A stretch of 35,694 nt of DNA from Myxococcales bacterium (GTDB taxonomy: Bacteria > Myxococcota_A > Polyangia > Haliangiales > Haliangiaceae): the NCBI GenBank assembly GCA_005779305.1, contig SXJR01000112.1, positions 1 through 35,694 of the forward strand, written 5' to 3'. Below, one piece after another: positions 12,441 through 34,181 of the stretch (the first letter of the stretch is position 1; the number at the start of each line of letters is the position of its first letter). Below the pieces are notes generated by a model, which saw only the letters and a program-made list of their open reading frames with translations, was not told the DNA's origin and made no database searches. A program made the translations under genes and the position numbers.

Positions 12441-13949
<1,509 letters not shown>

Positions 13950-26837: not shown

Positions 26838-27266
26838 CTACGTGATCTCTCGTCGTCGTGCGTCGAGCCAGCCCTGCAAGATCACCGCGGCCGCCTGCTT
26901 GTCGATCACCTGCTTGCGCCGCGCCCGCGACACATCGGCCTCGATGAGCACGCGCTCGGCCAGGGCGGTGGTGAAACGCTCGTCCTGCTCGTGCAATTCC
27001 ACCCCGGCCGGCAGCGCGGCGCGCAGCGCCTCGGTGAAGACCTGCACCCGCTTCGCCCGCGGACCGATCTCGCCGGACAGCTCGTAGGGCAAGCCCACGA
27101 TGACAGCTCCCGCCTCGCGGGCTTGCACCAGGGCGATGACCGCGGTCACGTCCGCCGCGGTGCCGCGTCTTGCCAGCACCAGCTCCGGATGCGCGGCGAG
27201 CCCGAGCTCATCGGACACGGCGACGCCGATGGTCTTCATCCCGACGTCGAGACCGAGCGCGCGCAT
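26838..27266 (-). CDS. ruvX: RuvX/YqgF family Holliday-junction resolvase-like nuclease
   Basis: A 142-residue protein of normal family length. The RNase H-like fold residues are visible: [16 protein letters not shown] (first catalytic Asp), [28 protein letters not shown] and [14 protein letters not shown] (last Asp). Family members process 16S rRNA precursor ends or act on DNA junctions. The ATG at 27266 is chosen; the N-terminus MRALGLDVG is typical. TAGGAA lies at -12 to -7 preceded by TGC and there is no Shine-Dalgarno site. mltG follows in the same direction, 14 bp later. Confidence 0.95.
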
Positions 27267-27272
27267 CGCTGC

Positions 27273-27278
27273 TTCCTA
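27273..27278 (-). promoter_or_regulatory. Leaderless-type -10 box (ruvX)
   Basis: TGC-TAGGAA, GCAGCG, then ATG on the minus strand. The last base of the hexamer is A rather than T, so this is the weakest of the seven boxes. Confidence 0.4.
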
Positions 27279-27841
27279 GCACGAGCTGGCTCGTCGAGAT
27301 GTGGCGTACTCACCGACGCCGACTCACGAAATTCGAGTGGCTACTCGAGTTGCCGCTGCTGCGACGCCCCTGGCGCAGTGCCTGGCAACTCCATCAGCCA
27401 TTTCGTCAACGGGTGGTGACACGAGGTGACAAAGCTGCAGAGGTTCGAGCCGTAACGCCGCGAAGCTTCATCGCGCGATCTCGCGCACAGAGTTGGAACG
27501 CGTGTTGCTCTGGTTTCGGTCATGATCAACGTGACTCCTTGCCCACGCGCCCAACCGGCGGTGCAAAAGGCGCGGAACACACGCTGAGCATCAGACGAAG
27601 CAACTCCTCGCGAGCTGACGCGTCTGAGTATTGGAATCAGTCCGCACCCTCTGCCGGTTGTACAGGCAGCCCTTCAACGCACCTCCCCCGCACCCTCCGA
27701 GGCACCTACCCCCCCTACACACGCGCGACATAGCGAGAGAAAATTTCGACTCAGTGGCGCCGAACGGTCTCCCTCCCCCTCATCCCTTTCGGCATCCCCC
27801 TCCCACTTGAGGCAACCAGTATCTCGTCGTGATCAGCGCCC

Positions 27842-27882
27842 GGCGCTGCATGGTTCCCCCCACTGCAGCGCCTTCTTTTTTT
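27842..27882 (+). terminator. Strong intrinsic terminator, no gene upstream
   Basis: GGCGCTGCA (27842-27850) pairs perfectly with TGCAGCGCC (27864-27872), with a 13-base loop, and is followed by TTCTTTTTTTC. It is the best terminator in the window. A preceding C-rich tract could also serve as a Rho site. Confidence 0.8.
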
Positions 27883-27958: not shown

Positions 27959-27978
27959 TCGCGCTGACGTCAGCGCGA
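27959..27978. repeat. Perfect 20-bp palindrome over a stop codon
   Basis: TCGCGCTGACGTCAGCGCGA is its own reverse complement and includes the stop codon (27970-27972) of the outer-membrane-like gene. It can form an 8-bp stem with an ACGT loop and may act as a terminator hairpin or a binding site. Confidence 0.7.
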
Positions 27979-28641
27979 GAACACCACGCCGAAGTTGAAG
28001 AACGCGCCCGTGTCCCACGGCGACGGCCCGGTGGCCATGTCGCACGGCCCGGCGCAGGTCGGCGGCGCGTCGGCCTTGTAGGTCGGGTCGCGCGCGACCA
28101 GGCCGCGGAACGCGTAGTAGAAGCCGACGTAGTTGGGCTTGTCCTTGCCGACCCGCACCGTCATCTGACCACCGGCGCCGAAGGCGAGATCGCGGCGCGA
28201 GAGCTCGCCGCCGCCGTACCACTGAACGAGCTGGTTGCCGACGCCGCCCTCGACCCAGATGTCGCCGCGGATCGGCACGTCACGCCCGCCGAACGCGGCG
28301 ATCGAGTACCGCACGTTGGCGCCGACGCGATGGAGCACGCCGCGGATCGGCGCGTCGTACTCGTACGCGCTCTGCCCGTGGGACAGGAAGTCGTACTCGC
28401 CGAGCAGCGCCAGCTTGCCCGAGCGCATGCCGCCATCGACATGAAGGCCGACCGCGGCGCCGCCGACCGGGCCCACGCTGTAGCCGCCGGCCAGGACCCC
28501 GAACGCGCCCTCGAAGCGGGGCTTCGCCCATGCCTTGGCGCGGGCGTCCTTGCAGTCGCTGTCCCAGCAATCGGCGGCGGCAGGGGCCGCGGCCGCGGCG
28601 AGAGCGATGACGGACAGTGACGCGGTCGCGAGCGTTGCCAT
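27970..28641 (-). CDS. Predicted outer-membrane beta-barrel protein
   Basis: A 223-residue protein. A signal peptide (MATLATASLSVIALAAAAAPAAA-D) precedes a mature part with alternating hydrophobic/polar strands and many Gly and aromatic residues (FEGAFGVLAGGYSVGPVGG, GKLALLGEYDFLSHG, NYVGFYYAFRG, FFNFGVVFSR at the end). The terminal aromatic-rich strand fits an outer-membrane barrel. Two Cys pairs are present (CWDSDC near the N-terminus and CAGPC near residue 200). No family name can be given. The start is well supported: AGGAGG lies 4 bp before the ATG. It lies 41 bp after the DedA gene and is probably cotranscribed with it. Confidence 0.75.
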   Translation of the reverse strand: MATLATASLSVIALAAAAAPAAADCWDSDCKDARAKAWAKPRFEGAFGVLAGGYSVGPVGGAAVGLHVDGGMRSGKLALLGEYDFLSHGQSAYEYDAPIRGVLHRVGANVRYSIAAFGGRDVPIRGDIWVEGGVGNQLVQWYGGGELSRRDLAFGAGGQMTVRVGKDKPNYVGFYYAFRGLVARDPTYKADAPPTCAGPCDMATGPSPWDTGAFFNFGVVFSR

Positions 28642-33111: not shown

Positions 33112-33293
33112 CGCGCGTGTCAGGCACCAAGGGATCGCAACGTGACGGATGCCCCGATCCAGGCCCGCCCGGTTGGGTGGGCAACCGAAATCCCGGACGT
33201 TTCTGTCATAGGTCAGGCGGTGGCGATGGATTTCCACCGGTACGACCACCCAGGACCGCACTGATTCCGCCGCGTTCGATCTCCCTGACAGAC

Positions 33294-33309
33294 TGGCACG
33301 ACGACTGCT
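33294..33309 (+). promoter_or_regulatory. Sigma-54 (RpoN) promoter
   Basis: TGGCACG-ACGA-CTGCT matches the consensus TGGCACG-N4-TTGC(A/T) with one clear mismatch and has the exact GG-N10-GC spacing. The transcript would start near 33320, giving a ~55-nt leader with a GGAGGA ribosome site before ATG 33375. The rest of 33006-33293 holds the terminator above and no gene. Confidence 0.7.
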
Positions 33310-33374
33310 TTGTCGTTTGTCCGACCTACCAACCTCGCACCCGCTCTGCTCGCCAGGACCACCCGGAGGACGCC

Positions 33375-34181
33375 ATGAAGAAACTGCTCGCACTCGTTGC
33401 CTTGGTCGCGCTCAACGCGACCGGCTGTACCCTCTACTTCGGGGAGAGTGACGACGACGACGTCGTGGTCACCAACTACTGCGAGCCGTCCTCGAACGGC
33501 ACGGTTTGTTACACCTGCTACGAGTACGAGGACGGGTGGTCGGAGTGCTTCCCGGACAGCTACGGGTGCAGCAGCGACAACGACTGCGCCACCGGCTGCT
33601 TCTGCGAAGAGAGCACCGGCGAGTGCAACGAGGCCGGCTGGTGCGCGAGCGATTCGGACTGCGGTGGTGGACTGGTGTGCGACTGCTCCGGCTCGTGCGC
33701 CGACCCGAGCCTCGGCGCCCGCGACTGCAACTCCTGCCAGGTCTCCGGCTGCCCGGTCGGCTTCGTGTGCGCCGCCAACGGCTCGTGCGTGCCCGACCCG
33801 AACCAGCCCGGCTGCACTGACGACGACCAGTGCGCCGCCGGCTGCTTCTGCCTCGACGGGTACTGCGAGGAGAGCTCGATCTGCACCAACGACAGCCAGT
33901 GCCCGTCGGGTCAGACCTGCGACGAGGTCCGCAACACCTGCGTGCCCGGCACCCCGCCGCCCCCGCCCCCGCGCCCGCCCCCGCCGCCGCCGCCCCCGCC
34001 CCCGCCGCCCCCGTCGTGCGGTGATCTGACGAACCAGGCCGCGTGCGACGCGCGCTCCGACTGCCGCTCGATCATCGGTGGGACCAACTGCCACCGCCCC
34101 GATGGCAGCACCTGCCAGATGAACGACACCAACTGCATCTGCGAGCCGCCCTTCACCTTCCAGGGCTGCGTCCCGAGCTGA
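33375..34181 (+). CDS. Cys-rich repeat lipoprotein with polyproline linker
   Basis: A 268-residue protein. The lipoprotein signal (MKKLLALVALVALNATGC) is clean. The body is a set of Cys-rich repeats with the pattern CxxDxxCxxGxxC (DNDCATGCFC, DSDCGGGLVC, DDQCAAGCFC, DSQCPSGQTC), typical of myxobacterial surface lipoproteins with disulfide-knotted modules. A polyproline segment follows (PPPPPP, one Arg, then 13 Pro) and a last Cys module ends the protein. Translation of 13 prolines in a row needs elongation factor P. GGAGGA precedes the ATG at good spacing. The sigma-54 promoter upstream suggests activation by an enhancer-binding protein such as the FHA activator at 17551; unproven. Confidence 0.88.
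   Translation: MKKLLALVALVALNATGCTLYFGESDDDDVVVTNYCEPSSNGTVCYTCYEYEDGWSECFPDSYGCSSDNDCATGCFCEESTGECNEAGWCASDSDCGGGLVCDCSGSCADPSLGARDCNSCQVSGCPVGFVCAANGSCVPDPNQPGCTDDDQCAAGCFCLDGYCEESSICTNDSQCPSGQTCDEVRNTCVPGTPPPPPPRPPPPPPPPPPPPPSCGDLTNQAACDARSDCRSIIGGTNCHRPDGSTCQMNDTNCICEPPFTFQGCVPS

Follow-up and report, generated by a model that had tools for sequence, protein, structure and literature searches.

A probable small RNA gene with a predicted sigma-54 promoter beside ruvX in the Kofleriaceae

The window (the whole 35,694-nt stretch of DNA that was analysed) derives from an 8.1-Mb draft genome that is 75% complete. Analysis of its open reading frames revealed no recognisable plus-strand gene in 27267-27882, and the nearest genes, ruvX, mltG and a beta-barrel-like ORF, were on the minus strand, both as described in the first-pass annotation. 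mltG flanks the interval, and genes for a VTT-domain protein and an LD-carboxypeptidase also occur around it. The GC content of the interval was 59-63% compared to ~70% in its surroundings, which confirmed the lower GC reported earlier. The beta-barrel-like ORF had no Pfam match, showed 72-80% identity in four congeners and was kept beside the RNA described below within the window's genus. The positions of all features are given in Table 1.

Table 1. Observed and predicted features of the ruvX-upstream interval and its flanks (window coordinates).
Feature	Position	Strand	Remarks
ruvX	26838-27266	-	
Distal enhancer (UAS) dyad TGGCTACTCGAGTTGCCG	27338-27355	+	one mismatch to TGGC-N10-GCCA
Proximal enhancer (UAS) dyad TGGCAACTCCATCAGCCA	27383-27400	+	exact TGGC-N10-GCCA
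Sigma-54 promoter TTGGAACGCGTGTTGCT	27493-27509	+	-24/-12
Predicted sRNA transcript	27520-27882	+	363 nt including 68 nt of repeat; +1 inferred from -12 element
Genome-specific repeat	27521-27591	-	68 nt inserted; frame ATG-20 codons-TGA-NN-ATG (71 nt)
5' stem-loop TCAGACG...CGTCTGA	27591-27627	+	
Core structured domain	27723-27839	+	P1, conserved internal loop, P2, P3
Closing stem P1	27723-27738/27822-27839	+	
P2	27750-27757/27803-27811	+	
P3	27759-27764/27788-27793	+	
Apical C-rich loop CTCCCTCCCCCTCATCCC	27769-27786	+	candidate anti-Shine-Dalgarno seed
Second C-rich stretch ATCCCCCTCCCAC	27794-27806	+	P2/P3 internal loop, 3' side
Intrinsic terminator, C-rich hairpin loop	27842-27882	+	fold and compensatory stem changes
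C-rich unpaired segment of terminator loop	27854-27861	+	
Beta-barrel-like ORF	27970-28641	-	flanks terminator side

The interval ends in an intrinsic terminator in which GGCGCTGCA (27842-27850) pairs with TGCAGCGCC (27864-27872) over 9 bp; TGG/CCA lengthens this stem to 12 bp, with one bulged C. The hairpin loop is TTCCCC and the U-tract, TTCTTTTTTT (27873-27882), lies directly 3' of the stem. The minimum free energy was -21.9 kcal/mol (z -3.3), which none of 200 shuffled sequences equalled. The stem, the fold and the shuffles thus bore out the 9-bp stem and T run noted in the first-pass annotation. A general terminator scan did not include this terminator among its listed sites, probably because the bulged stem did not fit the scan template. 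When the eight T-rich tracts of the window were ranked by energy the hairpin came second; the tract ranked first, at 13279, had only the interrupted tail CTTCTTCTTC, and the best true U run of the eight was that at 27873-27882. The earlier claim that this is the best terminator in the window therefore held.

The region upstream of ruvX could be aligned in six related genomes. The block 27718-27882 showed 95% identity in G005 and G002, 83% in G003 and 76-79% in G006, G009 and G011. As ruvX and mltG of G005 were 85% and 83% identical to those of the window, the non-coding block was more conserved than the adjoining genes in the closest relatives. A covariance model, built from the consensus fold of seven sequences, found a single copy in 20 of 30 Kofleriaceae genomes, representing four genera. 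The RNA was near ruvX in every model-positive genome of the family, and both orientations occurred. Some genomes without a match are explained by their assemblies: a contig end of G001 falls within the RNA, and ruvX itself was absent from G004, G016, G019 and G043. Four others (G007, G008, G012 and G014) had ruvX and an absent or unrecognisable RNA.

A model search of 290 genomes of the class and 379 of the phylum gave no convincing copy outside the family. Weak matches in G111 and G151 were rejected as their convincing alignment was limited to the terminator hairpin. When 84,980 species were scanned for the pattern, 48 stretches emerged, 20 of which were confirmed by the model; these 20 were labelled Kofleriaceae, Myxococcales, Deltaproteobacteria or were similarly labelled metagenome-assembled genomes (MAGs), and the named relatives that carry the RNA were Kofleriaceae and other Myxococcota MAGs.

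In the consensus fold a long stem closes the domain and leads into an internal loop; two more stems, capped by a C-rich apical loop, come next, and the terminator completes the structure. In the alignment of 20 homologues, which was fitted to the structure and therefore somewhat favours covariation, 95.4% of structure cells were paired, 28 of 41 pairs had changed on both sides (reached by none of 500 shuffles) and 117 cells carried such changes compared to 35 expected from the shuffles. Sliding the partners by 1-3 columns as a control reduced pairing to 33-45%. Covariation was already plain in a MAFFT alignment of the seven sequences, and compensatory changes were also present within the terminator stem. 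Single-sequence folding gave z-scores of -4.9 and -6.2. The strands of the internal loop, AAANUUUCGACUC and GAGGCAACNAGUA, were nearly invariant across genera. Compensatory covariation above the controls supports the block as a structured non-coding RNA. The comparison with relatives proposed in the first-pass annotation thus found conserved sequence as well as structure, clearly not the lack of conservation that would have spoken against a transcript. Upstream of the core, the 5' stem-loop has a counterpart in G005, CGTCAGCGCG...CGCGCTGACG, at the predicted 5' end; when the 5' segments of one genus were folded by consensus, no common structure emerged.

A strong sigma-54 element, with TGG near -24 and TGCT near -12 at canonical spacing, was found upstream on the RNA strand in 21 of 21 homologues with a scan reach of 450 nt; a reach of 200 nt misses the sites of the window, G006 and G011. 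The element aligned in G005, G002 and G001. Its background frequency was approximately one per 25 kb-strand, and only three such sites, including this one, were present on both strands of the 35.7 kb. RpoN was encoded by all 21 genomes tested, that of the window included. A second strong sigma-54-like element, TGGCACGACGACTGCT (33294-33309, plus strand), was observed within a predicted gene at 33117-34181. The +1 predicted for the RNA lies 12 nt past the C of the -12 element, and in the other homologues with a predicted start the transcript would be 196-331 nt long. Within one genus, the start so inferred coincides in most homologues with a conserved AGCAACC/TGCAACC, 70-85 nt upstream of the core. 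The first-pass annotation had proposed to look for a transcript from 27280 onwards; the start is probably at ~27520 instead, and 27338-27509 appears to be the promoter and enhancer region.

A gapped-word search revealed TGGC-N10-GCCA upstream of the promoter in 17 of 21 homologues, compared to no more than five in shuffled sequences; exact dyads of this form are expected by chance at ~0.02 per region. The dyads were not found upstream in L150, which is diverged, or in L191, where the contig ends. In the window the two dyads are spaced by 45 bp, and their centres lie 147 nt (distal) and 102 nt (proximal) ahead of the -24 element. Across the homologues the dyad-to-promoter distances clustered at 69, 91, 102-103, 114, 125, 136 and 147 nt, in steps of ~11 bp. 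At a period of 11 the phasing gave R 0.83, which none of 20,000 random draws attained, a probability that serves as a guide only since the homologues are related and hence non-independent. Steps of ~11 bp are what would be expected if an activator must occupy one face of the helix.

A 68-nt repeat sits at the predicted +1 of the RNA in the window, and G005, G001 and G002 have a precise empty site at this position; in sister species the sRNA does not include the repeat. The window's genome holds ~40 copies (further ones at L009-L032 and L094-L100); searches of six congeners found none, and a single borderline partial match came from elsewhere in the family. The 71-nt frame is fixed, almost without indels, with MLSLxxxxSAPPVGRVGKDSR as the typical peptide, and its 21 codons end 2 nt before a downstream start codon. 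Most intact copies directly precede the coding starts of unrelated genes, among them those for ThiG, an ECF sigma factor, an FHA/TPR protein and a GntR-type regulator (labelled by eye); for the GntR-type gene, the empty site in sister genomes falls precisely on the ATG. On contigs C175/C547 and C156 copies stand in tandem with a period of 68 nt, and the termini of the repeat, TGCTCAGC...GCTGATCA, form short inverted repeats. One copy (L014:1081-1151; G000:C436:4081-4151) lies inside a Nudix-type-looking coding region whose frame is seemingly open throughout, which recalls the Rickettsia palindromic elements. We take the repeat to be a miniature element, mobile or spreading, that prefers start codons. 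It would insert between the A and the TG of an ATG and give the downstream gene a translated leader, predicted to have 21 codons, with two bases between its end and the new start codon. Its presence at the predicted start could alter the function of the RNA in the window's genome.

The conserved structure, terminator, promoter and enhancer dyads computed here very probably mark a structured sigma-54-dependent sRNA gene. The fuller reading, an undescribed Kofleriaceae sRNA gene with a sigma-54 promoter, two activator sites, a conserved fold and C-rich loops suited to pairing, is likely on the sequence data. The first-pass annotation had offered a non-coding RNA or a lost gene to explain the terminator; conservation above that of the neighbouring genes, covariation, the terminator and the sigma-54 promoter with its phased dyads strongly support the former. 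We infer that a sigma-54 activator (bEBP) would bind the two TGGC-N10-GCCA dyads (27338-27400) and contact the sigma-54 polymerase bound at the -24/-12 element. The plus-strand RNA would then start at ~27520, end at the intrinsic terminator at 27882 and fold into a 5' stem-loop followed by the long closed core domain. The C-rich apical loop, internal-loop strand and terminator loop would most plausibly base-pair with other mRNAs at their G-rich ribosome-binding sites, which would lower the translation of these putative targets.

This pairing is suggested by the C-rich loops, which are both conserved and unpaired; the core of the apical loop, CCCCTCATC, was invariant in the aligned homologues. 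By analogy with known sRNAs we lean, by a little, towards anti-Shine-Dalgarno action. Complements of the apical loop occurred before ATG 27 times in seven genomes compared to twice for a reversed control, an excess that is confounded by codon usage; few of the 27 matches were obviously shared and no conserved target was established among them. The loops could instead bind protein or Rho. The C-rich tracts that the first-pass annotation had pointed out as possible Rho sites were indeed found, and are conserved RNA loops as well. The main rival to anti-Shine-Dalgarno action is that the RNA binds a protein or ligand through the internal loop formed by its near-invariant strands, serving perhaps as a decoy or scaffold, without antisense pairing. 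Those strands are conserved across genera beyond what antisense seeds alone would need, but the C-rich anti-Shine-Dalgarno-like loops are conserved to an equal degree, and we consider this explanation possible and rather unlikely.

Other readings dispute the independent RNA gene itself. For one genus, most genomes have the RNA on the ruvX strand, 5-210 nt upstream of ruvX, as would befit a leader or attenuator of a ruvX-mltG operon with a conditionally bypassed terminator. However, the RNA points away from ruvX in three genera, that of the window among them, as well as in L145 and L171, and the inverted copies keep the same structure, promoter and terminator. No conserved anti-terminator pairing was seen. 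As the orientation to ruvX flips both between and within genera, the RNA does not appear to be a ruvX leader, and we judge this reading improbable. The hairpin lies ~100 nt downstream of the minus-strand stop of the beta-barrel-like gene at 27970 and might be a 3' stabiliser of that gene with a T run arising by chance. The T run is nevertheless 3' of the hairpin on the plus strand in every homologue, even where the neighbour on that side differs, and covariation spans the whole 165-nt domain, which leaves this account scarcely credible. The same very low probability applies to the lost gene of the first-pass annotation, a protein-coding remnant: open frames are present on both strands, but the minus-strand ORF is not conserved as a protein and the plus-strand loop indels have lengths that are not multiples of three. 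The minus-strand ORF of 60 aa was rejected as a gene as sister genomes lack its start codon. Its differences were even across codon positions and mostly nonsynonymous (17-20 compared to 4-6 synonymous), and the apparent protein conservation (64-69% similarity in sisters) arises because the enhancer DNA there is conserved.

With a sigma-54 sRNA gene as the preferred reading, a whole regulated gene would be readable from the DNA, from its enhancers and promoter through start, fold and seed-like loops to the stop, which opens its activator, its regulon and its function next to cell-wall genes to direct tests. It would seem that, when the genome is GC-rich, an orphan terminator can reliably point to an unannotated RNA gene. 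To our knowledge the myxobacteria have yielded few sRNAs, chiefly Pxr, and neither in Rfam nor in the searched literature did we find a regulatory RNA described for Kofleriaceae. We give about an even chance to the broader proposal that the interval holds the founding member of an sRNA family of the Kofleriaceae, controlled by its own sigma-54 activator, together with a 68-nt mobile repeat that prefers start codons.

Comparison with Rfam 15 at gathering and permissive thresholds gave no family match, the sole match being a chance terminator. The RNA resembles 6S RNA in its long closed stem with an internal loop and its size of ~160-190 nt. Identity with 6S RNA was rejected: the RF00013 model had no match in this RNA even at E 10, and a separate single-copy 6S RNA, used as a control, is located elsewhere in the window's genome (G000:C472:6021-6205, minus strand). 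Each family genome has its own 6S RNA at another locus. The C-rich anti-Shine-Dalgarno-like loops are shared with the alpha-r14 sRNAs (NfeR1) of rhizobia, which expose such motifs in several loops (PMC10746234). The alpha-r14 RNAs have three separate hairpins with an identical CCUCCUCCC, whereas the RNA described here has one closed domain plus the terminator and CCCUCCCCCUC-type loops; the CCUCCUCCC motif was not found in 27718-27882.

GlmY of the Enterobacteriaceae depends on sigma-54 and the activator QseF/GlrR, which recognises TGT-N12-ACA dyads; the TGG-N12-CCA dyads here have equal overall length and spacing (PMC6075780). Both are stand-alone sRNA genes with a sigma-54 promoter, several 18-bp upstream dyads and an envelope-related context, here the LD-carboxypeptidase and MltG neighbours. 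The Kofleriaceae RNA differs from GlmY in its structure, in lacking a sequence or Rfam match and in having no activator gene adjacent among the neighbours examined. Pxr of Myxococcus, likewise from a myxobacterium, is an sRNA for which a sigma-54 promoter and an enhancer region are predicted, and its activator is PxrR (PMC5684412); it has three stem-loops, adjoins pxrR and arose within the Cystobacterineae (PMC5568312). In contrast, no NtrC-like regulator was among the immediate neighbours examined of the Kofleriaceae RNA, and its model matched nothing outside the family in the phylum sample, Pxr being compared by description. By analogy the locus would work much as GlmY and Pxr do, as a putative sRNA gene that is placed in neither family.
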